Of a stretch of DNA of 64,000 bases, positions 37,789 to 55,557 are shown piece by piece. The notes under the pieces are model-generated. The model searched no databases. It worked only from the letters and a program-made list of their open reading frames with translations, and was not told where the DNA came from. Origin of the DNA: Pseudobythopirellula maris (GTDB taxonomy: Bacteria > Planctomycetota > Planctomycetia > Pirellulales > Lacipirellulaceae); NCBI RefSeq assembly GCF_007859945.1, contig NZ_SJPQ01000001.1, positions 868,001-932,000 on the forward strand. Direction: 5' to 3'. Position 1 is the first letter of the stretch, and every line of letters begins with the position of its first letter. A program made the translations under genes and the position numbers.

Positions 37789-37830
37789 CACCGGACGCCA
37801 CGGACTCCTTTGTTTCCCCAGAATGTCAGA

Positions 37831-39906
37831 ATGTGTGAGCACGTCCGAATTTGTTTCTGGCCGTGGCGCTGCGTCGCGCTATTGGCCTTCGTGGTTTTGA
37901 GCGACTTGTCGCTCGGCGTGCGCGCATCAAACGCCCACGAGGGGCACGCCGCGCTGCCAACGAAGGGGCTCACCGTTTCCGGAGACCAGCTCTTGCTCTC
38001 TGAGGGAGCGCGGAAGGCGATCGACCTGCAGACCGGCAAGGTCACGCTGGCCGACATGACGCGTCGCGTGGAGTGCAACGCCCACGTCGAGGCGCCGTGG
38101 CGGATGCAGGCGATGGTCACGACCCAAGTGCCGGGACGGATCGCTCGGCTGTTCGTCCGCCCCGGCGACCGGGTCGAAGCGGGGCAGGAACTGGCGAGCG
38201 TCGAAAGCCTGGAACTGGAGGCGTTGCAGCTGGCGATGCTGCAAGCCGACGCGGAGCTGCGTCTGGAAGAAGAGAAGCTCGCGCGGCAACGCCCCCTGGC
38301 GGAGCGTGGCGTGATCACCGGCAGCGCGGCCCTGGAAACCGAAGCATCGGTTCGACAGCGGACGACCGAGTTGGAAGTCGTGCAGTGCAAGCTGCGGGCG
38401 CTCGGGCTCTCGCAAGGGTTGCTTGCGAGGGTGCGACAGAGCCAGCAGCCGGTAACGGAGTTCGCCCTCGTCAGCCCGTTGTCGGGTGTGGTTGCAGAGG
38501 CCGACGTGCGGGTCGGGCAGGTCGTCAAGACGACCGAGCACCTGTTTCACGTTGTCGATCCATCACGGGTCTGGGTGGTCGGCGACGTGCTCGAAGGGGA
38601 GTCCGCCGCCGTCCTACCGGGGCAGCCCGCGGTCGTGCGGTTCAAGGAGCTGCCCGATCAGCAGTTCACCGGCGTTGTCGATCACCTGCACCTCAAGATG
38701 GACGAGACCCGCCGCACCCGCCACGTGGCGGTTTTGATCAGCAACACGGACGGGCTGCTCAGTCCTGGGATGTTCGGGCAGATGTGGGTTGAGACCGCAC
38801 GGTCCGAGGAGGCGATCGTCTGCCCGACCGACGGGATCATCCGCTACCTTGGCTCGGAGTACGTGCTGGTCAACCGCGGCGAGGGCAAGTACGTGCGGAA
38901 GCCGGTCGAGATCGGCCTGCGGCGGGAAGACCAAGTGGAAATCCTGGACGGGTTGTTCCCGGGCGACCGGGTCGTTGTGAACGGCAACCACGTGCTCTTC
39001 TCGCTCTTCGCCAACGAGACGCCCACCTCAAGCGGCTCGCGGACGCCGCCCAAGATGGAAGCCCATCCGGAGGTCCCGGCGAGCGGAGGCGCCGCGCCGA
39101 AGCCGGTCGTTATCCAAGGCACGGTCGAGTTGCCAACCGACCGCAAGGCGCTGGCCAGCGCCCGCCTGGAAGGACGCGTCGGCCGCATCCTCGTCAACCA
39201 CAGCCAGCCAGTGAAAGCGGGTCAGGTCTTGGCCGAGGTAGAAAGCCTCCAACTGCGAAACCTGCAAGGCGAGCTGCTGGAGAGCCAATCGAAGCTCGCA
39301 TGGACCCGCGAGCGTGCCGGGCGTCTGGAGCGGCTCGCGTCCCAGAACTTGCTCTCCAAGAAAGAACTCTGGCAGCTGCAAACCGACCAGCGGGTGCTTG
39401 AGAACCGGGTCGCGAGCCTCGCCAGGCGCCTCGGAATGCTGGGCGTCGGGCAAGACGAAGTGGACCGGGTGCTGTCGGTCGACCTTTCGTCCCAGGACTG
39501 TGACGTGGCGCTCGTACGCAGCGTCTCGATCCGCGCCGCGATCGATGGCGAGGTCGCGGCGTTCGGCATCGTACCGGGGCAGATCGTCGACGCCGACACG
39601 CCGCTCTTCGAGATCCACGACCGCTCGACGTTGTGGGTGAAGGGCTACGTCTTCCAACGCGACGCCGCCGGCGTCACGACCGGTCAGCCCGTTTCGGTCA
39701 CCTTCCACGCCTTGCCGGGGGTCCGGGTCGAGGGGCGAGTGGTCCGAGTCTCGCCGGTGCTCGATGCGAGCGAGCGCGTGCTGCCGGTCTGGGTGGAAGT
39801 CGACAACTCCGATGGCCGCCTGATCGAGGGCATGCTCGCGCGGATCGAGATCAACCGGGTCGAAGTCGCCGAGGCGCGTCGCCACCGGCTGGACAATGCA
39901 CGCTAG
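37831..39906 (+). CDS. double-module RND periplasmic adaptor (membrane fusion protein), CusB/CzcB-like
   Basis: About 690 residues, nearly twice the normal adaptor length. The start is the ATG at 37831; a TTG at 37810 is possible. A signal segment (CVALLAFVVLSDLSLGVRAS) precedes two complete HlyD-like units; residue numbers count from 37810. Unit 1 (about 75-400) has a lipoyl half-motif VPGRIARLFVRPGDRVEAGQ, a coiled-coil hairpin, SPLSGVVAEADVRVGQVV, a barrel and a membrane-proximal part. After a Pro/Ser linker (about 405-433), unit 2 (about 434-690) repeats this with LEGRVGRILVNHSQPVKAGQ, another hairpin, IDGEVAAFGIVPGQIVDA and a barrel. The adaptor couples the inner-membrane pump to the TolC-like channel. 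It lies 24 bp before the pump gene. Confidence 0.88.
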   Translation: MCEHVRICFWPWRCVALLAFVVLSDLSLGVRASNAHEGHAALPTKGLTVSGDQLLLSEGARKAIDLQTGKVTLADMTRRVECNAHVEAPWRMQAMVTTQVPGRIARLFVRPGDRVEAGQELASVESLELEALQLAMLQADAELRLEEEKLARQRPLAERGVITGSAALETEASVRQRTTELEVVQCKLRALGLSQGLLARVRQSQQPVTEFALVSPLSGVVAEADVRVGQVVKTTEHLFHVVDPSRVWVVGDVLEGESAAVLPGQPAVVRFKELPDQQFTGVVDHLHLKMDETRRTRHVAVLISNTDGLLSPGMFGQMWVETARSEEAIVCPTDGIIRYLGSEYVLVNRGEGKYVRKPVEIGLRREDQVEILDGLFPGDRVVVNGNHVLFSLFANETPTSSGSRTPPKMEAHPEVPASGGAAPKPVVIQGTVELPTDRKALASARLEGRVGRILVNHSQPVKAGQVLAEVESLQLRNLQGELLESQSKLAWTRERAGRLERLASQNLLSKKELWQLQTDQRVLENRVASLARRLGMLGVGQDEVDRVLSVDLSSQDCDVALVRSVSIRAAIDGEVAAFGIVPGQIVDADTPLFEIHDRSTLWVKGYVFQRDAAGVTTGQPVSVTFHALPGVRVEGRVVRVSPVLDASERVLPVWVEVDNSDGRLIEGMLARIEINRVEVAEARRHRLDNAR

Positions 39907-39930
39907 ACCACACCGACCGGACCCCCATCG

Positions 39931-42900
39931 ATGCTGAACCGAATCATAGCCTTCTCGCTGAACAACCGCCTGCTGGTGATGGCGGCGGTCGTGCTGCTGG
40001 TCGCCATCGGCGGCTACCGCGCCTTGCGGCTGCCGATCGATGTCTTCCCAGACCTGAACCGTCCCACGGTCACGATCATGACCGAGGCGCACGGCCTCGC
40101 GCCCGAGGAGGTGGAGGCCCTTGTGACCTTCCCGCTCGAATCGGCGATGAACGGCGCCACGGGCGTCCGCCGCGTCCGGTCGGCGTCGGGCATCGGCATC
40201 TCGATCGTCTGGGTCGAATTCGACTGGGGCACCGACATCTACGTCGATCGGCAGGTCGTCTCAGAGAAGCTGCAGCTCGTGCGCACGCGGCTGCCGGAGG
40301 GCATGAACCCGACCATGGCCCCGATCACTTCCATCATGGGCGAGATCATGCTCGTCGGCATGCACTCCACCGGCGAAACCAGCAACATGGAGGTCCGCAC
40401 GCTCGCCGACTGGGTCGTCCGGCGGCGATTGCTCGGCATCGGCGGCGTCTCGCAGGTCACCGTCATGGGGGGCGAGATGAAGCAGTACCAGGTGCTTACC
40501 TCGCCCGAGCGTCTCGCCGAGTTCGACGTCACCATCGACCAGCTCACCGACGCGGTGCGGCAGTCGAACACGGTGATGGGGGGCGGCTTCCTGCTCGGCA
40601 AGGACCAGGAGTCGCTGATCCGGATCATCGGTCGGGCGACAACACTCGACCAGATCGAACAGACCGTGGTGCGGACCGGAGAACCCGTCCCAATCACCGT
40701 GGGCCAGGTCGCCGAAGTCGTCTTCGCGGGACCGGTCAAACGCGGTGAAGGGAGCGTCAACGGCGAACCGGCCGTCATCATGTCGGTGCAAAAGCAACCA
40801 GGAGCGGACACGCTCGCCCTGACCGAGACCATCGGCGGCACGCTCGACGGGATCCAGGCGACACTGCCTTCGGACGTCGTCATCGACAAGGACGTCTTCA
40901 AGCAGGCGACCTTCATCAACGTGGCGATCGGCAACGTCGTCGAAGCGATCCGCGACGGCGCCATCTGGGTCATCGTCATCTTGTTCGTGTTCTTGTGGAA
41001 CCTCCGCACGAGCGCCATCACGATCACCGCGATCCCGCTGTCGGTCATCGTCACCGCGCTCGCGTTCGACTACTTCGGCATCTCGATCAACACGATGACG
41101 CTCGGCGGCGTGGCGGTCGCCATCGGCGAACTGGTCGACGACTCGATCGTCGACATCGAGAACATCTACCGGCGGCTGAAGGAGAATCGCGCGAAGGCGA
41201 GCCCGGACAACCCGCTGAAGGTGATCTTCCTCGCCTCGGCCGAGGTGCGCAACAGCATCGTCTACGCGACGCTGATCGTCGTGCTGGTGGTGTTCCCGCT
41301 CTTCTCGCTGGCCGGCCTCGAAGGCCGCATGTTCGCGCCGCTTGGGCTGGCCTACCTGATGACGCTCGTTTCGTCGCTAGTCGTCTCGCTGACCGTCACG
41401 CCGGTGCTCTCGTCGTACCTGCTCCCGCGAGCCAAGTTCCTGGAGCGGGAGGGCGACCCGCTGCTGCTCCACGTGCTCAAGGCGATCGACACGCGTCTGC
41501 TCCGGTTCACGCTCAAGCACACGACCGCGGTGCTGAGCGTCGTTCTCGTTTGCGTGCTAGTCTCCTGCTCGGCCATTCTCTGGATGGGGGGCGAATTCCT
41601 GCCGGAGTTTAACGAGGGGACGCTGACGATCGGCGCGACCGCCCCACCGGGAACCAACCTGCAGGAGTCGAACCGTATCGGCCAGCGGGTCGAGATGATG
41701 TTGCTGGCGATCCCCGAGGTCACGCACGTCGCCCGGCGGACCGGCCGGGCGGAATTGGACGAGCACGCGGAGAACGTGAACTTCTCGGAAATCGACGCCA
41801 CGCTCGCCGAGCACAGCCTCCCCAAGCCGGGCTGGCACAACGCGGTGCTGCGCGCCGTCCCCGGGCTCAAGTGGCTCGGAGAGGCGGAGCAAGGGCGGCC
41901 ACGCGAGGAGGTGCTGGCCGAAATCCGCGACACGCTCTCGGAGATGCCGGGCGTCGTGTTCAACATCGGCCAGCCGATCTCGCACCGACTCGACCACATC
42001 ATGTCCGGCATCCGCGCCCAGATCGCCGTGAAACTCTACGGACCCGACTTGCAGGTCCTCCGCGACAAGGCCTACGAGGTTGCGCTGGCGGTCTCTGAGG
42101 TGGAGGGGGCGGTCGACCTGCAAATCGAACCGCAGGTCGAGATCCCGCAGGTGCAGGTGACGATCCGCCGCGAGGAAGCGACCCGGTACGGACTCACCCC
42201 CGACGAGGTCGCCGAAGCGATGGAAACCGCCCTGCAGGGGCGTGTCGTCTCGCAGGTCTTGCAAGGACAGCGGACTTTCGACTTGGTCGTCTGGTTCGAC
42301 GAGTCGGCCCGCAACAACGTCGACGCGATCCGCTCGACGCTGATCAGCCCCCCTTCGGGAGCGCAAGTGTCTCTCGGCAGTGTCGCGGACGTTGTCCAAA
42401 CCACCGGCCCGAACACCATCAATCGCGAGAACGTGACGCGCCGCATCGTCGTGCAAGCCAACACGGCCGGCCGCGACTTGGCGGGCGTCGTCGGGGACAT
42501 CAAGCGACGCGTCGCGGAGTCGGTCACGCTCGAAGAAGGCTACTTCATCGACTACGGCGGTCAGTTCGAGGCCCAGATGCAGGCCAACCGTCAGTTGATG
42601 TTCTGGGGTTCGATGTCGGTGCTGAGCGTTTTCCTGTTGCTCTACAAGTGCCTGCAGTCGTGGCGCGCCGCACTGCAGGTGATGGTCAACATCCCGCTCG
42701 CCGCGATCGGTGCGGTGGCGGCGCTGCTGTTGACGAGTTGGCCAACGCCCGAGGCGGTCCAAGCCGCCGCCTGGTGGGAGCTGCCGCGTGTGTGGGTCGA
42801 GGCTTCGACGCTCTCGGTCGCCCACTGGGTTGGATTCATCACCCTGGTCGGCATCGTCAGCCGGAACGGCATCATGATGATCTCGCACTACCTCCACCTG

Positions 42901-43239
42901 ATGCGGTTCGAGGGGGAAGAGTTTGGCGAACCGATGATTATTCGCGGCAGCCTGGAGCGGCTCGCGCCGGTGCTGATGACCGCGCTCACAACAACGATCG
43001 GCCTCGTGCCATTGGCGCTCGGCGCCGGTGAAACCGGCAAAGAAATCCTCCACCCGCTCGCGATCGTCGTGATCGGCGGACTCATCAGCTCGACCCTACT
43101 CGACCAGATCGTAACCCCCGCACTCTTCTTCAAATTCGGACGGAAGGCCTACGCAGGCCGGTTCGCGGCCGGGCAGGAGGGGCCCGACGAACCGGAGGTG
43201 CTGCGGATCGCCGAGCAGTTCGACAAGCAAAAAGAGTAA
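39931..43239 (+). CDS. heavy-metal RND efflux pump, CusA/CzcA family
   Basis: A 1102-residue protein, about the usual length. TM1 opens as LNNRLLVMAAVVLLVAIGG and is followed by RLPIDVFPDLNRPTVTIMTE, the family-typical start of the porter domain. The proton-relay segment in TM4 is VAIGELVDDSIVDIEN (D403, D404, D408, E410). Porter-domain and second-half features (ERLAPVLMTALTTTIGLVPL, VVIGGLISSTLLDQIVTPAL) are intact. The pump exports metal cations from periplasm or cytoplasm by proton antiport. Cu/Ag versus Co/Zn/Cd cannot be decided from what I can see. It is the last gene of the efflux operon. Its TAA stop (43237-43239) abuts an insertion element and is also that element's target duplication. 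Confidence 0.9.
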   Translation: MLNRIIAFSLNNRLLVMAAVVLLVAIGGYRALRLPIDVFPDLNRPTVTIMTEAHGLAPEEVEALVTFPLESAMNGATGVRRVRSASGIGISIVWVEFDWGTDIYVDRQVVSEKLQLVRTRLPEGMNPTMAPITSIMGEIMLVGMHSTGETSNMEVRTLADWVVRRRLLGIGGVSQVTVMGGEMKQYQVLTSPERLAEFDVTIDQLTDAVRQSNTVMGGGFLLGKDQESLIRIIGRATTLDQIEQTVVRTGEPVPITVGQVAEVVFAGPVKRGEGSVNGEPAVIMSVQKQPGADTLALTETIGGTLDGIQATLPSDVVIDKDVFKQATFINVAIGNVVEAIRDGAIWVIVILFVFLWNLRTSAITITAIPLSVIVTALAFDYFGISINTMTLGGVAVAIGELVDDSIVDIENIYRRLKENRAKASPDNPLKVIFLASAEVRNSIVYATLIVVLVVFPLFSLAGLEGRMFAPLGLAYLMTLVSSLVVSLTVTPVLSSYLLPRAKFLEREGDPLLLHVLKAIDTRLLRFTLKHTTAVLSVVLVCVLVSCSAILWMGGEFLPEFNEGTLTIGATAPPGTNLQESNRIGQRVEMMLLAIPEVTHVARRTGRAELDEHAENVNFSEIDATLAEHSLPKPGWHNAVLRAVPGLKWLGEAEQGRPREEVLAEIRDTLSEMPGVVFNIGQPISHRLDHIMSGIRAQIAVKLYGPDLQVLRDKAYEVALAVSEVEGAVDLQIEPQVEIPQVQVTIRREEATRYGLTPDEVAEAMETALQGRVVSQVLQGQRTFDLVVWFDESARNNVDAIRSTLISPPSGAQVSLGSVADVVQTTGPNTINRENVTRRIVVQANTAGRDLAGVVGDIKRRVAESVTLEEGYFIDYGGQFEAQMQANRQLMFWGSMSVLSVFLLLYKCLQSWRAALQVMVNIPLAAIGAVAALLLTSWPTPEAVQAAAWWELPRVWVEASTLSVAHWVGFITLVGIVSRNGIMMISHYLHLMRFEGEEFGEPMIIRGSLERLAPVLMTALTTTIGLVPLALGAGETGKEILHPLAIVVIGGLISSTLLDQIVTPALFFKFGRKAYAGRFAAGQEGPDEPEVLRIAEQFDKQKE

Positions 43240-44143
43240 GAACGCGTCCCGAGTGTGAACTAATTACCGCGAGCGAGGCGTCGTGACATGAGGTTGATCA
43301 TGGCGATGTAGGCGAACGCCTCGCTGCTGGCGGCGGTCTTCTCGTAGTCCTTGCTGTAACGCCGGCAGCGGCCGAGCCAGGCGAACGTACGCTCGACGAT
43401 CCACCGCTTCGGCAACACCACGAAGCCCTTGACCCCCACCGGCCGCAAGACCGTTTGCAGCACCCAGCCGAAGGCCTATTGGGTCCAATCGGGCAGCCCG
43501 CTGCGGCCGTAGGCGCTGTCGGCGAACACCACTTTCAGCCGCTTGAATCGCCCTCTCATCCGGGCGAGCACGAAGCACGCCCCGTCCTGATCCTGCATGC
43601 TGGCCGGGTGGACCACCATCGACAGCAGCAGCCCCAACGTGTCGACCGCGATGTGCCGCTTGCGGCCGGTGATCTTCTACCCCGCGTCGTAGCCCCGCAA
43701 CTCGCCCCCTTCCGCCGTGCGGACCGACTGGCTGCGACGACCGCGGCGGTCGGCGTGGGCTTCTTGCCGGCCGCCTTGCGGGCTTTCTCCCGCAAGGCGT
43801 CATGAAGGCGCCGCCACGTCCCGTCGTTCCGCCAGTTCCAAAAGGTGTTGTAGACGGTTTTCCAGTTCGGTAAGTCGCTCGGCAGCTGCCGCCACTGGTC
43901 CGCCTCAGGCGGAGTGCGAGCGACGTACAGGATCGCGTCGATCACCCACCGCCGGCACATCGGCTCGGGTCCGCAGCCGCTCCACTCGGGCAGCAGCCGC
44001 TTGATCAAACGTCATTGTGCGTCGGTCTGGTCGCTGGGATACTTCTTCTCCTTGAGCACGCTGCGGTTCCTCCGTCATTGGATGGCAGTCCAAAGGGGGA
44101 ACCGTAGCGGCTTTTCTCATCCGGCGCTACCCGGGACACGTTC
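43240..44143 (-). mobile_element. degraded IS5-family insertion sequence, 904 bp, with terminal inverted repeats and TAA duplication
   Basis: Left end GAACGCGTCCCGAGT (43240-43254) and right end, read inward on the minus strand, GAACGTGTCCCGGGT (44143-44129) match at 13 of 15 bases. TAA directly flanks both ends (43237-43239 and 44144-44146), a TNA duplication as made by IS5-family elements. The size fits an IS427/IS1031-like member. The encoded transposase is dead (see the pseudogene entry). Confidence 0.85.
43263..44070 (-). pseudogene. IS5-family transposase, three nonsense codons and one frameshift
   Basis: Reading on the minus strand from about 44070: KEKKYPSDQTDAQ then TGA in place of Trp, RLIKRLLPEWSGCG, PMCRRWVIDAILYVARTPP, QWRQLPSDLPNWKTVYNTFW, a one-base shift after PTPTAAVVA, then SQSVRTAEGGELRGYDAG followed by TAG in place of Lys, KITGRKRHIAVDTLGLLLSM, FADSAYGRSGLPDWTQ followed by [42 protein letters not shown] and [18 protein letters not shown]. 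The DSQSVRT, VDTLGL, FADSAY and ERTFAWL blocks are the DDE signature of this family. IS427-group transposases often use a programmed frameshift, so that lesion alone would be ambiguous, but the stops are decisive. Confidence 0.88.
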
Positions 44144-44315: not shown

Positions 44316-45344
44316 ATGAATCGTCAAGAACGCCCTTCCGGGAATGGCATCCTCTCGGCAATAGGCTGGACGCCTCTTGTGGAATTGACCCGCCACATCG
44401 AGCTCAGTGGTGGTCACCTCCATGCCAAACTGGAAGCCTTCAACCCAGGGGGCAGTGCTAAAGATCGACCCGCAAAACAGATGATCGAGACGGCGATGGC
44501 GGCGGGATTGGTGCATGAGGGGACGACGGTGATCGAGTCCACCTCAGGAAATATGGGAATCGGGCTGGCGCAGGCGTGCCGTTATTACAAGCTGCCTTTG
44601 ATCTGTGTCGTCGACCCGAGGACGCAACCGCAGAATTTGGCGATGCTGAAGGCTTTCGGCGCCCAGGTCGACATGGTAACGACACCCCTGCAAGGCGATT
44701 TCCTCCGTGCGCGACTAGCACGCTTGTGCCACCTCCTTGAAACGACCCCCAACAGCTTCTGGCCGAACCAATATGCCAACCTAGAGAATCCTCGAGCCCA
44801 TCAGACCGGGACTATTGCCGAGATCGATGAACAATTGGGCGGCGCCTATGATTACATTTTTGTGGCGGTGAGCAGCACGGGCACGCTGCAAGGCTGCCAG
44901 GAGTTTCTGCAAGCACATGGGCGACAAGCACGGCTTATTGCGGTGGACGCCGCGGGCAGCGTGCTGTTCGGCGGGAGCCCAGGACCGCGGTTAATCCCCG
45001 GGCTCGGCGCGGGACGGGTCCCGCCCCTCGCCCGAGACAATATGCAAACGCAGGTGCAACGGGTATCGGACCTCGACTGCGTGGTTGAATGCCGCCGGCT
45101 GGCTTACCGTGAAGCGATTCTGGCAGGCGGTTCCGGCGGCGGGGTGCTTTCGGCCATCAGAAGGATGCGAGAGCAACTAGCTGGCCAAACGGTGGTCGCC
45201 GTGCTGCACGATTCTGGGACACGCTACCTAGATACGGTTTACGATGACGTGTGGGTCGAAGCGAACTTGGGCCTCGCTGCGGATGAGCTGGCTTCACTTG
45301 TTCACGCCGACGACCAGATTCCGGTTGAAGCGAGGCAAGCATGA
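44316..45344 (+). CDS. SbnA/cysteine-synthase-like PLP enzyme, possible 2,3-diaminopropionate-type synthase
   Basis: 342 residues from the ATG at 44316 (GAGG six bases upstream). An earlier ATG at 44232 would add 28 residues before the family's usual start and is not preferred. Fold-type II PLP motifs are clear: GILSAIGWTPLVELTRHI at the N-terminus, the Schiff-base lysine K49 in FNPGGSAKDRPA, the phosphate/substrate loop ESTSGNMGIGLA, and the cofactor-binding AGGSGGGVLSAI. The partner sequence YANLENPRAHQTGT and the final HDSGTRYLDTVYDD are shared with SbnA-like and cysteine synthase enzymes. SbnA itself joins O-phosphoserine and glutamate. Here the substrate is unknown. The gene heads a four-gene chain and overlaps the next by ATGA. 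Confidence 0.82.
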   Translation: MNRQERPSGNGILSAIGWTPLVELTRHIELSGGHLHAKLEAFNPGGSAKDRPAKQMIETAMAAGLVHEGTTVIESTSGNMGIGLAQACRYYKLPLICVVDPRTQPQNLAMLKAFGAQVDMVTTPLQGDFLRARLARLCHLLETTPNSFWPNQYANLENPRAHQTGTIAEIDEQLGGAYDYIFVAVSSTGTLQGCQEFLQAHGRQARLIAVDAAGSVLFGGSPGPRLIPGLGAGRVPPLARDNMQTQVQRVSDLDCVVECRRLAYREAILAGGSGGGVLSAIRRMREQLAGQTVVAVLHDSGTRYLDTVYDDVWVEANLGLAADELASLVHADDQIPVEARQA

Positions 45345-47038
45345 CCGTGCTCGATCGAGTCGTACCTCACGCCGCATGCAACCCCCACTACCCTGCAGCG
45401 CCGTTGCGAATCGCCGTGGTCGGCTGCGGTCCTAAGGGGTTGTTTTGCCTCGAGCGTTTAGCCTATGAGCTCGACAAGCGAAACACCGGTAGGTCGATGC
45501 ACATCTCGGTCTTCGAACCCGCCGAATACCCCGGCGCCGGTCTCGTCTACAACCCACGGCAGCCGCACTACTTGCGGATGAACTTCGCTGCTAAGCACAT
45601 CAATATGTGGCGGAGCGAGGATGACGGCCCTACTCTTCTGCAGTGGCTGCAACGGCATCACCCGAAGCTCGCCAGTGCTGAACAGTTCGTGCCACGCGCG
45701 ATTGTTGGCGAGTACTTGCACGCCTGCTATCAGACGGTAATCGCCCGTCTATCGCAGCACGCAACCGTTGCTCTGCTGAAACAGTCGGTTACTGGACTGA
45801 TCGAAGTCAAATCGGGATGGGACATTATCACCAAAGGCGGCCGAAGAGTTGAATGCATCGACGAAGTCTTGCTCGCGGTGGGGCACGAAGGGTGGCGTGC
45901 CGGGGGGGCTGCGTCTAATCGAGACACTCCCTTTGATATACCCCATGTCTACCCAACATTGCAGCAGCTCTCCCCCACAGCGGCGCTGGCCGGAAGCCGT
46001 GTAGCCCTCCGTGGAATCGGCCTGACGGCCATCGACGCGATCCTTGCCCTTACCGAGGGTCGGGGAGGAACGTTTCGGCAAGACAGCAAAGTTTGGCGAT
46101 ACCAGCCTTCCATGGGTGAGCCAGCAGTCATCTACCCTTACTCTCGCAGCGGCCGGCCGATGCTGGCCAAGCCGATCTCTCAAAAGATGTCTGTACCCCC
46201 TCTTGCGAACTTGTGGCGGCAATACGCCAGCCAACTTGTGAAGCTCGCAGAGGAAAACCGCCCCATCCACTTCGCGGAAGAGATTTGGCCGGTGGTAGTC
46301 TTGGCCGCCGAGGACGCCTTACAAGCGAGCGGTGGTATCGGTGCTGGGCGGTGGTTCGAGTCGCGGCTTCACAACCGGCCTACAGCGAAAGAATTCCGGG
46401 AACAGCTCGTTAGCTCGGTCGAGGTCGCCACCGGAGTGCGGAGTCCCGATGCCGCCTGGGCTGTTGGCGAAGCATGGCGCAGGCTTTATCCATCGCTAGT
46501 GAAAATCATCAGCCATGACGGCCTGGACGCTGAATCTTGGCCTCGCTTCCGCATCGTAGCCAGTGAGATGGAGCGTGTCGCGTTCGGACCACCTGTAGAG
46601 AACTGCTGCAAGCTCTTGTCGCTGATCGATTGCGGACTCGTCGATCTTGCCTACCTGCAAGGACACGTAGGCCCCCACGGAGCCAACTCAATAGCTATAG
46701 GCGCCAACCACGGTGACGCTCCCAAGTCGATCGATCACCACGTGAATGCAGTCCTGCCCAACCCGGCAGCCTCACATCCTTGTGGCCCGCTCAGCTCGCT
46801 CGCAAAGGCGGGAGCCCTGACACCCCATGCCAGCGGCTGCGGCTATCGTGTCGACCGGTCGGGCCGCCCCATCACCACGGCGGGCACGACCCTGCATGGA
46901 TTGACGCTTGTCGGTCGGCCTACGGAGGGGTCCGTCTTGGGCAACGACACACTGAACCCTCGGCTGCACGACCAATCGTCCCGGTGGGCTCGGTGCATTT
47001 TTCAGAAGTCAAGGCAACCCGAAGGGAGCGCGTCGTGA
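45341..47038 (+). CDS. FAD/NAD(P)-binding oxidoreductase-like protein
   Basis: A 565-residue protein. An N-terminal Rossmann motif (RIAVVGCGPKGLFCLERLAY, a GxGxxG variant) is followed by the features of the FAD-NAD(P)-binding domain of single-protein monooxygenase-like enzymes: FEPAEYPGAGLVYNPRQPHY, LRMNFAAKHINMW, a second nucleotide segment LAGSRVALRGIGLTAIDAIL, and a C-terminal GLTLVGRPTEGSVLGNDTLN active-site-like loop. Its start overlaps the SbnA-like gene's stop (ATGA) and its stop overlaps the next gene's GTG start (GTGA), so it is tightly coupled to both. It could take the oxidising step that SbnB performs in staphyloferrin B synthesis, although it is not homologous to SbnB. The specific reaction is unknown. 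Confidence 0.75.
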   Translation: MTVLDRVVPHAACNPHYPAAPLRIAVVGCGPKGLFCLERLAYELDKRNTGRSMHISVFEPAEYPGAGLVYNPRQPHYLRMNFAAKHINMWRSEDDGPTLLQWLQRHHPKLASAEQFVPRAIVGEYLHACYQTVIARLSQHATVALLKQSVTGLIEVKSGWDIITKGGRRVECIDEVLLAVGHEGWRAGGAASNRDTPFDIPHVYPTLQQLSPTAALAGSRVALRGIGLTAIDAILALTEGRGGTFRQDSKVWRYQPSMGEPAVIYPYSRSGRPMLAKPISQKMSVPPLANLWRQYASQLVKLAEENRPIHFAEEIWPVVVLAAEDALQASGGIGAGRWFESRLHNRPTAKEFREQLVSSVEVATGVRSPDAAWAVGEAWRRLYPSLVKIISHDGLDAESWPRFRIVASEMERVAFGPPVENCCKLLSLIDCGLVDLAYLQGHVGPHGANSIAIGANHGDAPKSIDHHVNAVLPNPAASHPCGPLSSLAKAGALTPHASGCGYRVDRSGRPITTAGTTLHGLTLVGRPTEGSVLGNDTLNPRLHDQSSRWARCIFQKSRQPEGSAS

Positions 47039-48555
47039 GCGTCATCGGTACCTATGATCTTGAGCGGGCATCCAACGACATGATCGACGGAATGCGTGAT
47101 GGGTGTCATGGTGCGGCGCCGCTTCCTGGACGCGTCTCCGATTGGATGGTGGACTTGCTGCGGGACGCCCGACTCCACCAATGGATTGCTCAACACGGTT
47201 CTCCGCTGAACGTCGTCAATCCCGAGCATTTCATTCGAAATGCATCGGAAATGATCAGGATCACGCAGGAGCGGGGCGTACAGTTCCGTCCGTTTTTTGC
47301 TAGAAAAGCCAACAAGTGCCTCGCTTTCGTCGACGCCGCGATTGACGCTCATCTGGGGCTCGACTGCGCGAGCGAGGAGGAACTGCTTCAGTCGCTCGAT
47401 CGCGGCGCTAAGCCGTCGAACATCATCTGCACGGCGGCCGTCAAGAATCGCGGACTGCTAGAACGGTGCGTCTCTGTTGGTGCAACGATTGCCGTCGACA
47501 ACTTCCAGGAGTTGTCGGCCATTGAGAACATACAGCGGGGAGAAAGTAGTACTGCCCGACTAGCACTCCGCATGAGCGGTTTCCTCCATGGCGGGAACAA
47601 ACTTCGCTCGCGGTTTGGATTCGATATGGACCAGATCCCCGAGCTGCTGCGCCGCCTCGACGACCATCCCGAGAGCCTGCGCAGCATCACAGGCCTGCAT
47701 TTTCACCTCGACGGATACTCGGGTTCTCAACGCGTATCGGCCATCCAGCAACTGATCCCTTTTGTCGACTCGTTGCGCGAAGCCGGCGCACCTATCTCAT
47801 TTATTGACATCGGCGGCGGCCTACCGGTCTGCTACCTAAATAACGAAGCCGATTGGTCGCGATTCTGGCGTGAGCACCAACGCGCCCTTACCGAGCAACG
47901 CGGTGAGATCACCTACCGCAACGATCCGCTGGGGCGAACGGTAGACGCCAACCGTGTGCTGGGCGAACCCAAGGCGTATCCTTTCTTCCAGCAGCCCGCT
48001 TGGGACGCGTGGCTTGCCGCAGTCCTCGATGCGGAGATCGATGGCGAGCCGATCGCCCAAGCTTTGGCCACGCGACAGCTCGAACTCCGATGCGAACCAG
48101 GACGGAGTCTACTGGACAACGCGGGACTCACGATCGCCAGGGTCGAGGGCGTCAAAGCTTTGAACGACGGAGCGGGCGCGATCTTGCTATCGATGAACGG
48201 CACGCAGTGCCGAACGTCGAGCGCTGACTTTTTTGTAGATCCGCTACTGGTCAGGGCGCGCGCCACGGAGGCTCGAGTCGCTCTGCCTGCAAACCAGTCA
48301 GGCTACCTGTTCGGCGCTTACTGCACCGAGTCGGATCTGATCGTGAAACGGAAATTGGTCTTTCCGGAAGGGATCGGCGTTGGAGACCTAGTCGTGCTGC
48401 CGAACACTGCTGGCTACTTCATGCACTTCCTCGAGAGCAGATCGCATCAGTTTCCGCTCGCCAAGAACGCAGTATACGACCGATCCACGCCTTCGCTTCT
48501 TAGTCTCGATGGAATCGACGAGAACGACAGGGCAAAGAGAAAGACGGCGCCATGA
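47035..48555 (+). CDS. fold-type III PLP decarboxylase, Y4yA/SbnH-like
   Basis: 506 residues from the GTG at 47035, which overlaps the previous stop. The open frame extends upstream through the previous gene, but that part is antisense-like Pro/His-rich sequence. The alanine-racemase-like barrel is intact: PLP lysine in FRPFFARKANKCLAFVDAA, LGLDCASEEELLQSLDRGA, substrate-face GLHFHLDGYSGSQ, phosphate loop SFIDIGGGLPVCYL, EPGRSLLDNAGLTI, and the second-subunit cysteine segment GAYCTESDLIVKRK. These correspond to the ornithine/diaminopimelate decarboxylase family. An insertion around 275-320 (DPLGRTVDANRVLGEPKAYP) distinguishes it from DAP decarboxylase and resembles Y4yA-type enzymes. It probably decarboxylates an amino-acid-derived intermediate of this cluster. 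Its stop overlaps the next start (ATGA). Confidence 0.82.
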   Translation: MSVIGTYDLERASNDMIDGMRDGCHGAAPLPGRVSDWMVDLLRDARLHQWIAQHGSPLNVVNPEHFIRNASEMIRITQERGVQFRPFFARKANKCLAFVDAAIDAHLGLDCASEEELLQSLDRGAKPSNIICTAAVKNRGLLERCVSVGATIAVDNFQELSAIENIQRGESSTARLALRMSGFLHGGNKLRSRFGFDMDQIPELLRRLDDHPESLRSITGLHFHLDGYSGSQRVSAIQQLIPFVDSLREAGAPISFIDIGGGLPVCYLNNEADWSRFWREHQRALTEQRGEITYRNDPLGRTVDANRVLGEPKAYPFFQQPAWDAWLAAVLDAEIDGEPIAQALATRQLELRCEPGRSLLDNAGLTIARVEGVKALNDGAGAILLSMNGTQCRTSSADFFVDPLLVRARATEARVALPANQSGYLFGAYCTESDLIVKRKLVFPEGIGVGDLVVLPNTAGYFMHFLESRSHQFPLAKNAVYDRSTPSLLSLDGIDENDRAKRKTAP

Positions 48556-49310
48556 TCGTCAACCCAACAGACGAGGGTTGGGACATAGTTTTCCAGCCAG
48601 CGCACGGTTTGTTGGCAGCCAAGCTTGCAAGCGAGTTTGCAGAGGACCGTCGATGCCCTTTCTGGTTGGAAACCGTCACTGCAATCGCCACGCATGACGA
48701 CGGACAAGTCGCGTTTCAACCCGGAGACCGCCGCTACCTCACTCAGGCCGGGGCTCCGAAGGACTTCACGGCGGTCGAACTATCGGCCGAGCAGCGTTAC
48801 GAAAAAACCCGCGATTGTCTTGAAAATGCGTACCGCAAGCACAGGTGGACCGGTCTGCTGGAGTCTCAGCACGCGGAGTTTCTCTATGGCGAAAAGGATG
48901 CGGCGTCGGATTCTTTGAAAGAGTTGTTGGCGAACGAGCGACAACATCGCGAACACGTTCTCGATGAGTTGGAGCTCGACCGAGACGACTTACAGATCGC
49001 TTACGACATCATGCGTTGGTGCGATCGGTGCTCGCTGATTCTCTGCCAGGACCGCATTCCCTCCATAGGACGGAACTTGGAAGTCATCACTTTCGCAAAC
49101 GGCACGCGCGTTGACCTAAGCCAGGATGACTCCGGCAATCTGAGGATTAACCCTTGGTTGTTCGGTACGGCCAAGTTTGAGGCGACGGTCGAAGTGCATC
49201 GACTGACGCGGCTTGCCTTTGAAGACGATGAGCAATTGGAGCAAGCATTGCGTGACTGCACCACACATGTACGCAGGTACGAGTTTGAGCGATCTGTTGA
49301 AATGCCGTGA
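48552..49310 (+). CDS. DUF3891 family protein
   Basis: A 252-residue soluble protein. It shows the DUF3891 pattern: QPAHGLLAAKLASEFAED near the N-terminus, ETVTAIATHDDGQ (a His-Asp pair), LLESQHAEFLYG in the middle, and a conserved YDIMRWCDRCSLILCQDRIP segment followed by beta strands to the end. Family knowledge gives no firm reaction. The paired His/Asp positions (H in AHGLL, HDD, SQHAEF, MRWCD) resemble an all-helical metal-dependent (HD-like) core, which is an inference. The ATG overlaps the decarboxylase stop (ATGA), making it the fourth and last gene of a fully coupled operon. Confidence 0.75.
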   Translation: MIVNPTDEGWDIVFQPAHGLLAAKLASEFAEDRRCPFWLETVTAIATHDDGQVAFQPGDRRYLTQAGAPKDFTAVELSAEQRYEKTRDCLENAYRKHRWTGLLESQHAEFLYGEKDAASDSLKELLANERQHREHVLDELELDRDDLQIAYDIMRWCDRCSLILCQDRIPSIGRNLEVITFANGTRVDLSQDDSGNLRINPWLFGTAKFEATVEVHRLTRLAFEDDEQLEQALRDCTTHVRRYEFERSVEMP

Positions 49311-49677: not shown

Positions 49678-49721
49678 TAGTCTAGTAAACGATTGCCACC
49701 GACTTACGAGGCTCTTTTCCT

Positions 49722-50096
49722 ATGTCATCGACGCAACTCGGGCGAGTCCAGCTCCTCATCATGCAGGTCTTGTGGGCAAAGCGACGAGCAACCGCCCGGC
49801 AAATCACCGACGCGATCAACGAGATCGAGCCCATCGCTCACAGCACCGTGCAAACGCTTTTGCGCGGCCTGGAGGAGAAGGGTTCGGTTTCACACGAAAC
49901 CGAGGGGCGGACGTTCGTGTTCCTGCCCTTGGTTGTGGAAGACGAGTTCAAGCAGAACGCTACACGGGACCTGCTCGATCGCGTCTTCAGCGGCAACGTC
50001 GGAAAGCTCGTCACGCACCTCCTTAAGAACGAGAACGTGCCCAAGGAAGAGATTGACGAGATCCGTAAGTTCATCAACCGCCGCAGCAAGAAGTAA
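49722..50096 (+). CDS. BlaI/MecI/CopY-family transcriptional repressor
   Basis: A 124-residue protein of standard length. An N-terminal winged helix (LGRVQLLIMQVLWAKRRATA, RQITDAINEIEPIAHSTVQT, LLRGLEEKGSVSHETEGRTF) is followed by a C-terminal dimerisation region (HLLKNENVPKEEIDEIRKFI). Members dimerise on short dyads and are released when their partner membrane protease cleaves them. Here the partner gene starts 13 bp downstream behind AAGGAGAG, the classic blaI-blaR1 arrangement. A promoter and operator-like dyad are visible upstream. Beta-lactam response is not implied: no beta-lactamase is adjacent, and in planctomycetes this pair is used widely for other signals. Confidence 0.9.
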   Translation: MSSTQLGRVQLLIMQVLWAKRRATARQITDAINEIEPIAHSTVQTLLRGLEEKGSVSHETEGRTFVFLPLVVEDEFKQNATRDLLDRVFSGNVGKLVTHLLKNENVPKEEIDEIRKFINRRSKK

Positions 50097-50109
50097 AAGG
50101 AGAGTCGCG

Positions 50110-53100
50110 ATGAGCTGGTTATCGACGCATGCGGTTGGGATCGATGTTCTGGTATCTGTGATCGGCTTTGCCGCCAACTGGATGCTGCAATCAACGCTGC
50201 TGGTGAGCATCGGCCTGCTGGTGGGCGCTTTGCTCCGTAAAAGCGGCTCCGCGGCTCAGTCCTTGGTATACCGAACAACCCTGGCTGCGGCGCTCGTTTG
50301 TCCTGTTGCTACGTTCGCTCTGTCCCAAGCCGGATATTCGGGCTGGGCGATTGGTATGCCGCAGGCATGGGTAGCTACAGCGATCGAGGCCCCCGCTGGC
50401 GAAGCCGCCATCCAATCCCCGGAATTCAACGAACGCGGCTCTTCTGATATGACCGTAGCCTCTGCCGGCGATGATCGTCTCATTAACGCGAAAGTGCCTT
50501 TCAATAAGTCGGGGGCGATTACGGCGCCAATCGACTTTGAGTCGCTGCAATCGCAGCCGGTGTCGCCGGGGCCATTTACGGCGGAGGCGCCCGCCACGCT
50601 TCAACCAGTCCAAGAAGCAATCGCCGTCGATCTTGCCCCGACAGTTACGCTGTTTGGTAAGGCCGTGGCTGTGGCCGCATTAGCTTGGTTGGCCGCTGCG
50701 GGGCTGCTGGCGATGCGGTTGTTGATGGCGTGGTGGCGGCTTGCCAGCCTCCGCAAGTCTGCCATTCACGCCGACAGCGTAACAAGAGACACCTGTCGGT
50801 TATTATCCGACGAGATGGATGTCGCCGCGCCCGAAGTGCGGTGCAGCCCCTACTTGCCGAGCCCGTGCCTTTCAGGCATCAGAAAACCTGCTGTCTTGCT
50901 GCCCGAGGCAGAGCTCTGCCTGCCGGTGCGTGACGTGCTGATCCACGAACTCGCCCACCTGCGTCGCCACGATTGCTTTTGGAATCTGCTGCGTCAGCTG
51001 GCGACTGCTCTCTTCTTCTTCCACCCGCTGCTATGGGTTCTGTCACGGCGGATTGAAACCACGGCCGAGGAAGTGTGCGACGACTTTGTCGTACAGTTTG
51101 GCGGTAATCGAGAAGAGTATGCCCACCGGCTCGTCAACATTGCCGAGCTGTCGTCGGCGCCGTTCGCAGCGGCGGGCGTGGGGATTGTTTCGTTGCGGTC
51201 GATGCTCGCCAGGAGAGTTACGCGGATCATGGACACGTCGCGGTCGCTCTCGACGCGTGTCGGCAACCTGCTGCTGCTAACGGTCCTCATGAGTGGGCTT
51301 GCCGGAGTGACAATGACCGGTTTGATAGGCTTAGCGCCGGCTGCTACGCAAGCAAATACGACTACCGAGATCGGAGACCAGACTGAACTAGCTGAACTCA
51401 TCACACAAGATGCGGCGCCGGATGACTTGATCACTGTCCGAGGACAGGTGGTCAAACCAAACGGTCAGCCCATGAGTGACGCCGATGTCTACGTTCTACG
51501 TTACTTCTGGGACTACGGAGACAAGAAGCCGCTTAGCTCTACCAAAGCGGACCAAGACGGTCGATTCGAGATCTCTTACCGCAAGTCACAATTCGCCGAA
51601 ACCGCGGGCAGGCCCAACCAATGGCGCGAGACCTGCATCGCGGCGTTCGCAAGAGGCTACGGTATCGGTTGGGCCGAGTACGACCGCTTGAAACCGGGCG
51701 AGGGTGCAATCATCCGCCTCGCGGTTGACGACGTGCTGATCGAAGGGCGGGTGATCGACCTTGAGGGGAAGCCTGTCGTCGGCGCCACGGTCGAGGTTGG
51801 TTCGATTGACGAGCCCAAGGCGGACACGCTCGACGAATACCTCAACGCGATCAAAGCGTCGCAGGCGATCTCGACTGCGTATCGGCTCATGGATGGGGGT
51901 CCGCCACATCACAAAGCGGGCCACTGGCCGGCGATCACCACCGATTCCAAAGGCGTGTTCCGCGTGTCGGGTGTCGGTCGTGAGCGTATCGTTAAGCTGC
52001 ACGTGAGCGGTCCGACGATTGTGAGCAGTACGCTCCGCGTCGCGACTCGGCGTATGGAGCCGATCGTTCACCCGGCCTACGCGTCTCGCGATGCCGACAG
52101 CGAGACCCAATACGGCTCGGAGTTCCATTACACGGCGGCGCCGTCACGCGCGATTACCGGTGTTGTCCGCGACGCCGATTCGGGCGAACCAATCAGCGGC
52201 GCCGAAGTCTGGAGTTGGCGTTTTGCCGGCGAGAATATCAGCGGGATCACGACGATCAAAACAAAGTCGGACAACGAGGGGCGGTATCGGCTGAACGGCA
52301 TGCCTAAGGGCAAAGGCAACGAAGTCGTCGTTGTGCCCACCGATCTACCCTATTTTACCGCGGAGTTCGAGGCGCCCGATCCGCCAGGTATCGAACCGGT
52401 TCTGCTCGATATCGAACTTCACCGCGGCAAGTGGGTAACAGGTCGCGTGACCGACAAAGCAACCGGCTCGCCAGTCGCGGCCCGAATGCACTACATGGCT
52501 TTTCCGGACAACAAGCTCGCGTACGAGTTGCCCGAATTCGAATACGGCACGCATTGCTCGTTGATTCAAAATCGATACCGCACCGATGCCGACGGGCGGT
52601 ACCGTGTTGTCGCGCTGCCGGGCCACGGCATCATAGGGGTGAGGGCGATCCTCGATCCCTATCCCGTTGGGCAGGGCTTTGGCGACATCGAGAGCGCCGG
52701 CGACCGTAATGCTTTTGTGCGAATCAACGGCCCTATCAGCCCTTCACCAAGATCGCCGACCGCCATGAAGGAAGTGCGGATCGTCCCCGAAGCTGAGGAA
52801 ACCGTCCTAGACTTTGCGCTCGATTCGGGCAGCAGCGTGGCGCTCCGAGCGGTGGACCCCCGTGGGAGACCGATGAAAGAAGTCGATGTGGTTGGCGTCA
52901 CCGAGATCTACGGGTCCCACATGAAGATGGACTCGGCCGAGTTCGAACTCACCTGCTTCCGCCCCGACGAAGAACGCACCGTGCTGCTCAGTCACCCCGA
53001 GCGGCGACTCGGCAAGGCGCTCCGCATTGCCGTCGACAAGAACCGGGACGGCCCACTGGAGGTGACGCTCGAACCGATGGCAATCGTCACGGGACGGCTA

Positions 53101-55557
53101 ACACGTGACGGCGCCCCGGTCCCTGGCTTATCGATACGCATCGATGTGAAAGGCGACTCTGGCTATGGCCGCAGTCTTAGTCGCACGGCCACGGATAAAG
53201 AAGGCGTATTCCACCACGAGGAGCTCCTTCCTGGTCTCGATTACTCCATCTACGCCGAAGGGCGAGGGCTTGAGCCAACCCCCCTTGCCGATGGGCTCAC
53301 CGTAATGCCTGGCGAGACGATCGATCTGGGAACGATCGACGTAAATAGTAAAGAACGCCCCGAGCCGAAGCGATCGATCGCGAGTCAAGACGTCGAACCG
53401 CTTCCGAAGAGCGAAGCCGACAAGTTCGCCGGCAAGGTGGTCGATCCCGACGGCAACCCCGCCGCCGGCGCGGAGTTGTTCTTGGTGTTTCACATCCCCG
53501 AGGCGAGCGGGCGGTTGACGCCGAATTGGAAACCACTGGCGACGACTAACGCCGAGGGCGGGTTCCGCTTCACGGTGAAGCCCAGCGACTTCGGATCCAA
53601 CGCTACGGCCCGCGAGTTCGGCTACGGCCAGATCGTCGCGACGCACCCTGACTTTGGCTTTGCCTCGGCGGCGGCAAGCCTGTTTGAGACCAGTGGCGAG
53701 GCATTACGCAAAGTCAAAGAGCGTCTGAAGACGGTTCCGCCGGCTTATGCGGGAGCCATCAAAAAGATGCTCGCGGCCAAAGGGCAGCCGCTCAAGCTGC
53801 AGGCGGAGAGCCAGCCGATCCGCGGCCGCATTGTCGACATCAACGGTCAGCCGGTCGCCGGCGCCAAGCTAACGCTACTGGAAACGTGGACGGGCGTCGA
53901 CGGTACGCTCGACGGCTGGACCAGGGCGGCTGGTGAGCCCAAGGCGGACTATTACTCAGCGCGGATGCAAACGCCGCAAAGCATGAATGGTCCTCAACTG
54001 CGTTCGGTTATCTCGCCAGCGACAACCGACGCTGACGGACGCTTTCGAATCAATGGCATCGGGGATGGCAAGATCGCATGGCTGCTCCTAGAAGGCCCCG
54101 GCATTGAGTCGGCCAAGGTCTGGACCCGCACCGAGGCCGGAGAAGCGATCAAGCTGATGCGTGAGCGGCGTTCGCCCGACCTAGGATTTTATACCTACCA
54201 CTCGTCTGAGTTCACACACGTCGCGGGCCCTTCGGTCCCAATCACCGGCGTCGTACGCGACGCCGAAACGAAGGATCCTCTGGCTGGGATCACCGTTAAA
54301 AGCCAGAGGCGGCACGGTGAGCAGATCGGCGGTTGGGGGCAAGACTTCGTCCGCGCAGTGACCGACAAAGAGGGCCGCTATCGCCTCGAAGGGATGCCGA
54401 TCGGCAAGGAAAACTCCATCGCCGCGATAGCACCGAGTGGTGATACAGCCTACTTCTCGGCCGAGAGAGCGGCTCCTACCAAGACGGGCGAGCCCACACG
54501 CGTCGACTTTGATCTTCGACGCGGTATTTGGGTCGAAGGCCACGTCACCGACAAGCAATCCGGCAAGGGCCTACCGGGCAGGCTGAAGTACTACTTTGAC
54601 GGTAAGAACCCCAACTTTAGCGAAGCACGCTCGCTAGGCGTAGACGAGCGAGATCGCTTGCGAGCCCGCGATGACGGCGGCTTCCGGATTGCAGCTTTAC
54701 CCGGCGTTGGGTACGTCGCGTTCTTAGCCGACGATCACGAAACGTATCCAAGTGCCGAGGGCGTGCTCAAGGCGAATGGTCGGATCGAAAAGCCCAACGA
54801 ATCAATGATCCGGACCCGCCCCTCCTACTTGATGACGACCAACTATCACGTTGTCGCCGAGATCGATCCCGCCGAGGGCGCTCAGCAGGTGAGGCTGGAT
54901 CTCGAAATCGACGGGGGCTCGCTCGTTGTTGGCCGCGTTACGGATCCAGCTGGTAAACCAGTAGCTGGCTACCGCTATGCGGGCCGTCAGGCGCGGATGA
55001 TTGGGTCGTGGCGCCCGGCGAAAGAAGACCGATTCGAATTGCTCGGATACGATCGCGAGAAGCCGCGCCATTTCTACTTTGTCCATCAAGAACGTCAGCT
55101 GGCAGGGCATGCGGTAATCGAGAGCGATCTTCCTGCCGACCTTGTCGTCCAACTCCAACCCGCTGGGAGAGTGACTGGGCGTCTTGTTGACCAAGATGGC
55201 GTTCCGCTGCCCGATTGCCAGTTGGTTCCATATCATCCGCCAATCGCGACTCCCTCTCTCCTAGACAACGTACATCAGGCGGCGCCGCTGCCGCACAACA
55301 CCCCTCATTCATTGAGCGCACAGCACGAGACCGATGCCGAGGGTCGGTTCGAGATTGCTGGCCTCGCTCCGGGCGTCGAGTACCAACTGCGGGCGTTCGA
55401 TCGTAACAGCATGATGGCCAAACGCCGCCGAGCGCCGAAGTTCTCCGGTCCGCTGGACACGGTAATCAAGGTTGAACCCGGAGAATCGAAAGACCTGGGC
55501 GACGTGAGGTTGTTAGACGAGAAAGAGTTCGCCAAACGTGCAGAGGCGGGCAAGTGA
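50110..55557 (+). CDS. BlaR1-like M56 membrane protease with duplicated carboxypeptidase-regulatory-like ectodomain
   Basis: 1815 residues from the ATG at 50110. The N-terminal half is a BlaR1-type M56 peptidase: TM segments (MLQSTLLVSIGLLVGALL, VAVAALAWLAAAGLLAMRLL), the zinc motif HELAH at about 279-283 in LIHELAHLRRHDCFWN, the EEVCDDFVV segment, and a last TM (LLLLTVLMSGLAGVTMTGLI). After residue 440 follow at least eleven carboxypeptidase-regulatory-like beta sandwiches of the form xGRVxDxxGKPVxGAxV (for example IEGRVIDLEGKPVVGATVEV, IRGRIVDINGQPVAGAKLTL, VVGRVTDPAGKPVAGYR), each with a (D)xxGRFxI/YRxxGMPxG strand. Modules 1-5 and 6-11 correspond one to one, so the ectodomain is a tandem duplication. 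It probably senses an extracytoplasmic ligand and cleaves the BlaI-like repressor. Confidence 0.88.
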   Translation: MSWLSTHAVGIDVLVSVIGFAANWMLQSTLLVSIGLLVGALLRKSGSAAQSLVYRTTLAAALVCPVATFALSQAGYSGWAIGMPQAWVATAIEAPAGEAAIQSPEFNERGSSDMTVASAGDDRLINAKVPFNKSGAITAPIDFESLQSQPVSPGPFTAEAPATLQPVQEAIAVDLAPTVTLFGKAVAVAALAWLAAAGLLAMRLLMAWWRLASLRKSAIHADSVTRDTCRLLSDEMDVAAPEVRCSPYLPSPCLSGIRKPAVLLPEAELCLPVRDVLIHELAHLRRHDCFWNLLRQLATALFFFHPLLWVLSRRIETTAEEVCDDFVVQFGGNREEYAHRLVNIAELSSAPFAAAGVGIVSLRSMLARRVTRIMDTSRSLSTRVGNLLLLTVLMSGLAGVTMTGLIGLAPAATQANTTTEIGDQTELAELITQDAAPDDLITVRGQVVKPNGQPMSDADVYVLRYFWDYGDKKPLSSTKADQDGRFEISYRKSQFAETAGRPNQWRETCIAAFARGYGIGWAEYDRLKPGEGAIIRLAVDDVLIEGRVIDLEGKPVVGATVEVGSIDEPKADTLDEYLNAIKASQAISTAYRLMDGGPPHHKAGHWPAITTDSKGVFRVSGVGRERIVKLHVSGPTIVSSTLRVATRRMEPIVHPAYASRDADSETQYGSEFHYTAAPSRAITGVVRDADSGEPISGAEVWSWRFAGENISGITTIKTKSDNEGRYRLNGMPKGKGNEVVVVPTDLPYFTAEFEAPDPPGIEPVLLDIELHRGKWVTGRVTDKATGSPVAARMHYMAFPDNKLAYELPEFEYGTHCSLIQNRYRTDADGRYRVVALPGHGIIGVRAILDPYPVGQGFGDIESAGDRNAFVRINGPISPSPRSPTAMKEVRIVPEAEETVLDFALDSGSSVALRAVDPRGRPMKEVDVVGVTEIYGSHMKMDSAEFELTCFRPDEERTVLLSHPERRLGKALRIAVDKNRDGPLEVTLEPMAIVTGRLTRDGAPVPGLSIRIDVKGDSGYGRSLSRTATDKEGVFHHEELLPGLDYSIYAEGRGLEPTPLADGLTVMPGETIDLGTIDVNSKERPEPKRSIASQDVEPLPKSEADKFAGKVVDPDGNPAAGAELFLVFHIPEASGRLTPNWKPLATTNAEGGFRFTVKPSDFGSNATAREFGYGQIVATHPDFGFASAAASLFETSGEALRKVKERLKTVPPAYAGAIKKMLAAKGQPLKLQAESQPIRGRIVDINGQPVAGAKLTLLETWTGVDGTLDGWTRAAGEPKADYYSARMQTPQSMNGPQLRSVISPATTDADGRFRINGIGDGKIAWLLLEGPGIESAKVWTRTEAGEAIKLMRERRSPDLGFYTYHSSEFTHVAGPSVPITGVVRDAETKDPLAGITVKSQRRHGEQIGGWGQDFVRAVTDKEGRYRLEGMPIGKENSIAAIAPSGDTAYFSAERAAPTKTGEPTRVDFDLRRGIWVEGHVTDKQSGKGLPGRLKYYFDGKNPNFSEARSLGVDERDRLRARDDGGFRIAALPGVGYVAFLADDHETYPSAEGVLKANGRIEKPNESMIRTRPSYLMTTNYHVVAEIDPAEGAQQVRLDLEIDGGSLVVGRVTDPAGKPVAGYRYAGRQARMIGSWRPAKEDRFELLGYDREKPRHFYFVHQERQLAGHAVIESDLPADLVVQLQPAGRVTGRLVDQDGVPLPDCQLVPYHPPIATPSLLDNVHQAAPLPHNTPHSLSAQHETDAEGRFEIAGLAPGVEYQLRAFDRNSMMAKRRRAPKFSGPLDTVIKVEPGESKDLGDVRLLDEKEFAKRAEAGK

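Follow-up and report, generated by a model that had tools for sequence, protein, structure and literature searches.

Enzymes of the SbnA type are known from gene clusters that combine them with an oxidoreductase and a decarboxylase dependent on pyridoxal 5'-phosphate (PLP). In the staphyloferrin B module sbnA/sbnB/sbnH of Staphylococcus aureus, they occur in a system that also contains nonribosomal peptide synthetase (NRPS)-independent siderophore (NIS) synthetases. The SbnA/Y4yA pair in the rhizobial plasmid pNGR234a and in a Rhizobium plasmid is accompanied by an opine dehydrogenase and an IucA/IucC synthetase, and in plasmid pMAH135 of Mycobacterium avium the SbnA-type and Y4yA genes flank an ornithine-cyclodeaminase-type gene. 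We analyzed here a stretch of 64,000 nucleotides from the planctomycete Pseudobythopirellula maris (contig NZ_SJPQ01000001.1, positions 868,001 to 932,000; hereafter the window), taken from an assembly of 5.07 Mb in six contigs. It carries genes for an SbnA-like enzyme, a flavin adenine dinucleotide (FAD) protein, a Y4yA-like decarboxylase and a DUF3891 protein in a row. As stated in the original prediction, these four plus-strand genes were joined by three 4-bp stop/start overlaps (ATGA at 45341, GTGA at 47035 and ATGA at 48552). The first three genes are a conserved unit, best filed as a variant of the SbnA/decarboxylase-type pathway with a relative of the FzmM-type N-oxygenases in mid-pathway and no siderophore assembly.

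Like the staphyloferrin B module, the locus starts with an SbnA-type enzyme whose phosphoserine-selectivity residues are the same, and a PLP decarboxylase from the same superfamily follows later, but a class-B flavin monooxygenase takes the place of SbnB, the decarboxylase belongs to the Y4yA branch, and NIS synthetases are lacking. The pNGR234a cluster y4yA-y4xP-y4xO-y4xN-y4xM, which had been named as a related pair, indeed has adjoining Y4yA-like and SbnA-like genes together with an oxidoreductase. The likeness was not close, however, as the gene order differed, the opine dehydrogenase, the IucA/IucC synthetase and an exporter of the major facilitator superfamily were present there but not here, and the proteins were only 32% identical. 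The pMAH135 cluster has the same three steps at its core and in matching order, NIS synthetase genes are likewise missing from its vicinity, and it may represent a sister pathway, although its middle enzyme is of the SbnB type, it includes an exporter of the multidrug and toxic compound extrusion (MATE) family, and the shared enzymes are 33-34% identical. In this mycobacterial locus (L018, 5259-10750), the SbnA-type, ornithine-cyclodeaminase-type, Y4yA and MATE genes stood in a row near copper genes. The middle slot appears, by comparison of these clusters, to be filled by alternative oxidoreductases, and it is chiefly on this ground that the FAD protein is proposed to act on the SbnA product.

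The spread of the unit was examined by scanning 84,980 species genomes with a profile built only from the FAD protein, which gave 78 named loci. The profile selects this FAD subfamily because all nine sequences used to build it came from loci with an adjoining SbnA gene, while SbnA and Y4yA themselves were absent from the query; an earlier genome scan with a single FAD sequence had given no match, and an alignment-based profile was needed. SbnA was located directly upstream and Y4yA directly downstream on the same strand at 76 of the 78 loci, the two exceptions being L082, cut by a contig end, and L103, without detectable Y4yA. This arrangement is far beyond chance, and the conserved unit is the three-gene set SbnA-FAD-Y4yA. 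The loci belonged to seven phyla (Planctomycetota, Bacteroidota, Actinomycetota, Pseudomonadota, Verrucomicrobiota, Gemmatimonadota and Acidobacteriota). The expectation that the genes form one pathway-like unit was thus borne out, as the same order recurred across all seven, and the families were not, as had been considered possible, seldom together elsewhere. Coupling of the genes was usual: the median intergenic gap at both junctions was -4 bp across the cassette loci, a figure obtained by choosing the start codon nearest the upstream stop, which favors short gaps. Natural fusions were also detected, namely SbnA-FAD at eight loci in Bacteroidota, for example in Zunongwangia, and FAD-Y4yA at three loci in Actinomycetota. 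The pairwise distance matrices of the three proteins correlated with r of 0.87-0.90 (null maximum, 0.095), and therefore the unit is inherited as one.

The presence of the cassette was patchy: 10 of 97 genomes matched at E<=0.001 in the search among relatives, seven of them strongly, and 7 of 392 genomes matched in a phylum-wide sample. It was also borne on plasmids in Sulfitobacter (S. pontiacus included) and Tsukamurella. Both the patchiness and the plasmid copies fit horizontal spread, and the accompanying tree was a quick one that gives no proof of transfer. The third-position G+C content of the four P. maris genes (0.64-0.67, versus 0.85-0.89 in the upstream resistance-nodulation-division (RND) genes) was compatible with horizontal gain, some other genes of the window being low as well. 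The closest cassette-bearing relatives were Adhaeretor mobilis and Aeoliella straminimaris of the same family, Lacipirellulaceae. In one relative (G004), Y4yA was located about 5 kb away on the opposite strand, and more distant PF13454 proteins (28% identity) did not adjoin SbnA. Ulvibacterium carried an additional, more weakly matching FAD-protein relative several kb upstream of its cassette (L079, 47-1459).

The first enzyme scored 372.7 bits against the SbnA equivalog model TIGR03945 (cut-off, 349.95), whereas the best cysteine-synthase model, cysKM, gave 207 bits, 165 bits below that score, and the match to PDB 5d84 had an E-value of 8.5e-74. The PLP lysine was Lys49. In S. aureus SbnA, Arg132, Tyr152 and Ser185 have been reported to select O-phosphoserine (PMC12414870). 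The corresponding residues R133, Y153 and S186 were conserved in 77, 76 and 76 of the 78 sequences, respectively. The enzyme is accordingly SbnA-like by sequence, as had been proposed, and an ordinary cysteine synthase was rejected on account of both its family score and its retained phosphoserine residues. Its predicted reaction couples O-phospho-L-serine with an amino donor, which is glutamate in SbnA. Another homologue in the genome (C1:483447; 229.9 bits) fell below the SbnA cut-off and may be the housekeeping cysteine synthase.

A profile search with 47 sequences of the FAD protein matched PDB 8cp2 at E=1.4e-69. This structure is that of FzmM, an L-aspartate N-hydroxylase (PMC10404684). 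The predicted model of the FAD protein (mean confidence, pLDDT, of 92) superposed on it with a TM-score of 0.80, and the next structural matches were mainly N-hydroxylases (SidA, PvdA, DesB, NbtG and DfoA). The protein shares with FzmM (PDB 8CP2/8CP5) whole-length homology and the class-B flavin monooxygenase fold with its catalytic Asn, and differs from it in being genetically tied to SbnA and Y4yA. When residues were mapped by the printed alignment, the catalytic Asn62 of FzmM, lying on the flavin, corresponded to N81 and the flavin-stacking Trp51 to Y70, an aromatic residue kept as Tyr; both were invariant in 47/47 sequences, and the position of Arg266 held Lys or Arg in all of them. The original prediction had SbnB replaced by an unrelated flavoprotein; the replacement was confirmed, but the protein is a relative of the FzmM-type N-hydroxylases rather than unrelated. 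It probably works like an N-oxygenase, judging from its homologues and modeled fold.

The third gene product, of family PF02784, retained the catalytic residues K91, C430 and E432, conserved in 76-77 of the 78 sequences, in agreement with the proposed participation of a Y4yA-like decarboxylase. It matched the diaminopimelate decarboxylase 4xg1 at E=4.1e-12. The entry 6knh, listed as a probable diaminopimelate decarboxylase and which we take to be SbnH, followed at E=8.6e-8, below diaminopimelate decarboxylases and others; SbnH (as 6knh) was not the closest solved decarboxylase. Annotated homologues of the third gene carried the name Y4yA family, and Y4yA appeared in the literature searched only in rhizobial or type III effector contexts.

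The genes recurring around the cassette were of general-stress type and included the large catalase KatE, DUF421, the ferritin-like DUF2383 and DUF892, and further an AI-2E transporter, a glycogen-branching-type enzyme and short-chain dehydrogenases. Six families (DUF421, DUF2383, KatE, DUF892, DUF3891 and GlgB-type), of which the DUF families are presumably stress-related, were represented at 12 of 19 planctomycete loci but at only 1 of 60 random regions of 19.5 kb from eight genomes (p ~1e-8). This neighborhood suggests a role in general stress. The G004 locus, on contig 1 of that genome (L024, 19.8 kb), where Y4yA is detached and lies on the opposite strand, was densely filled with stress-type genes around the cassette; it contained genes for PNPOx-like, EcsC, DUF2383 and DUF3891 proteins, an amylase/branching enzyme, topoisomerase IB, photolyase, DUF421 and a Na/H exchanger.

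From these data we infer the following substrates, order of steps, product and physiological role. The SbnA-like enzyme would combine O-phosphoserine with an acidic amino acid to give an opine-like secondary amine. The FzmM-type monooxygenase, taking the slot of SbnB or of the opine dehydrogenase in other clusters, would then use NADPH and O2 to oxygenate a nitrogen of this product, a reaction that may also split it to give 2,3-diaminopropionate or its N-hydroxy form. Removal of a carboxylate by the Y4yA decarboxylase would leave an ethylenediamine-type small molecule, probably N-oxygenated, and DUF3891 would be accessory. As neither a condensing synthetase nor a conserved exporter was associated with the cassette, it probably yields a small compound that is used intracellularly. 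We assign a probability of roughly 0.45, somewhat below even, to the reading that the three-gene cassette produces a phosphoserine-derived, N-oxidized ethylenediamine-type metabolite linked to stress. A more specific form of it, in which a horizontally mobile stress pathway of at least seven phyla has the flavin N-monooxygenase acting directly on the SbnA product, followed by Y4yA, to give an undescribed N-oxygenated ethylenediamine-type molecule, is more tentative and on the doubtful side. The apparently one-off cluster has become a widespread, nearly invariant three-enzyme unit, to which no product is assigned in the literature that could be searched; no description of the unit was found there either, consistent with the view that the pathway is undescribed. 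If the proposed pathway is true, an SbnA-type enzyme would have gained a new role beyond the assembly of siderophores and antibiotics, FzmM-type N-oxygenases would have a further, new substrate, and many bacteria, a large share of them marine, would contain a previously unknown metabolite linked to stress. With three to four genes, the pathway is small enough for a direct test in Escherichia coli.

Several observations weigh against this pathway. The aspartate chamber of FzmM is formed by Arg412, Asn413 and Arg416, which are not conserved and correspond to Y383, P384 and V387 in the FAD protein. Judged by these residues, the protein is a relative of FzmM but not an aspartate N-hydroxylase. With these aspartate-binding residues replaced, the substrate cannot be carried over from FzmM, and the FAD protein could instead be an oxidase or dehydrogenase. 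As for stress, the six families were picked after the neighborhoods had been seen, some loci came from close relatives, 7 of the 19 planctomycete loci had none of the families, and the P. maris window itself showed only DUF3891 among them. The stress link is for these reasons strong but not clean evidence.

If the FAD protein were a straight substitute for SbnB, it would oxidize the C-N bond of N-(1-amino-1-carboxyl-2-ethyl)-glutamic acid (ACEGA) with no oxygen left on the nitrogen, and Y4yA would convert the resulting 2,3-diaminopropionate into ethylenediamine, a short diamine that would act like a polyamine or serve as a precursor. Such a function would agree with the slot in other SbnA/Y4yA clusters being occupied by NAD-dependent enzymes, either of the SbnB type or opine dehydrogenases, these alternatives and the FAD gene being mutually exclusive, and with pMAH135, where SbnA-type, SbnB-type and Y4yA genes occur with no NIS synthetase nearby. 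We nevertheless regard this as rather unlikely, because the closest characterized and structural relatives are N-hydroxylating monooxygenases and the Asn positioned above the flavin never varies, both of which point to an oxygenation and not a dehydrogenation.

The original prediction suggested that the product is perhaps metal-binding. In that case, the cassette would supply the amino-acid part of a metallophore while the condensing enzyme is encoded elsewhere or unrecognized. IucA/IucC synthetases do accompany SbnA/Y4yA genes in rhizobial clusters, and some natural chelators, among them [S,S]-ethylenediaminedisuccinic acid ([S,S]-EDDS), contain an ethylenediamine skeleton. A producer of this compound and its control by zinc have been described (PMC9252823). 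However, the P. maris genome (about 97% complete) contained no IucA/IucC NIS synthetase (PF04183), no NRPS condensation domain (PF00668) and no SbnB-type enzyme of the ornithine cyclodeaminase family (PF02423), so that the absence of NIS synthetase and NRPS noted in the window proved true genome-wide, and a siderophore cluster was rejected. Neither an NIS synthetase (y4xN as query) nor an opine dehydrogenase or ornithine-cyclodeaminase-type partner was detected at the 78 FAD loci. The guess of a metal-binding product had been drawn from the adjoining RND efflux operon, but the RND gene of the window was found at none of the 78 and 19 cassette loci (partly overlapping sets); with the operon not conserved, a metal link through it was discarded. 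A metallophore is therefore improbable.

FzmM oxidizes aspartate repeatedly to nitrosuccinate (PMC10404684). By this FzmM/CreE-type precedent from the closest solved relative, the flavoprotein might fully oxidize an SbnA-derived amine, to be decarboxylated by Y4yA into a nitro compound or a source of nitrite or NO, but this is very improbable, since the FzmM entry-chamber residues holding partly oxidized intermediates were not conserved and no CreD-type lyase, for which no dedicated model was searched, appeared among the conserved neighbor clusters.

DUF3891 is a real but dispensable partner, so that of the predicted four-gene cluster the three enzyme genes stood, while a fixed fourth member did not. 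The 4-bp overlap with Y4yA was also present in Blastopirellula marina, and likewise in the decayed copies of Aeoliella and Adhaeretor. The copy of Adhaeretor mobilis had an in-frame stop near its start and had lost its 3' part, and only the first ~47 residues remained in Aeoliella; with the three enzymes intact in these two closest relatives, DUF3891 was ruled out as an obligate member. Remnants behind an intact cassette were located at 7074-7688 of L022, where the sequence ran into one resembling a short-chain dehydrogenase, and at 11949-12089 of L021. In Bacteroidota, DUF3891 directly followed Y4yA in Algoriphagus antarcticus and lay within about 10 kb of the cassette in Aquimarina and Ulvibacterium, and the linked copy was the only one in the genome in Algoriphagus, Aquimarina and Ulvibacterium. 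Of seven planctomycete genomes with the cassette, five had one DUF3891 paralogue beside or close to it. Residues H18, H48-D49 and D158 were invariant in five DUF3891 sequences; HD-domain phosphohydrolases have metal ligands in the order H...HD...D. Foldseek gave no usable match, and in a structural comparison HD proteins were among the longer matches, although weakly (Z only 4.5-5.5). DUF3891 is possibly a divergent HD-domain metal-dependent phosphohydrolase; a literature search on the family found nothing.

Table 1. Features of the cassette and its upstream border in the window
Feature	Position	Strand	Basis
SbnA-like PLP enzyme	44316..45344	+	TIGR03945, PF00291
FAD/NADP-dependent class-B monooxygenase, FzmM type (predicted)	45341..47038	+	PF13454
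Y4yA-like fold-III PLP decarboxylase	47035..48555	+	PF02784
DUF3891 protein, optional cassette associate	48552..49310	+	PF13030, 186 bits
Apparent transposase remnant, between RND operon and cassette, outside the pathway	43264..44008	-	Broken frame, transposase-like N-terminus, judged from translation

Scans for promoters and terminators gave hits at chance level only. Upstream of the cassette, two adjacent plus-strand genes (37810-43239) resembled those for the membrane-fusion protein and the pump of an RND efflux system, and one uninterrupted 7590-codon frame on the minus strand (6673-29445), with a third-position G+C content of 0.93, would encode a giant protein. Downstream, at 49693-55557 on the plus strand, a BlaI-like regulator frame overlapped the start of a 1954-codon frame, which resembled, as judged from reading its sequence, a BlaR1/M56-type peptidase with repeated carboxypeptidase-regulatory-like domains.

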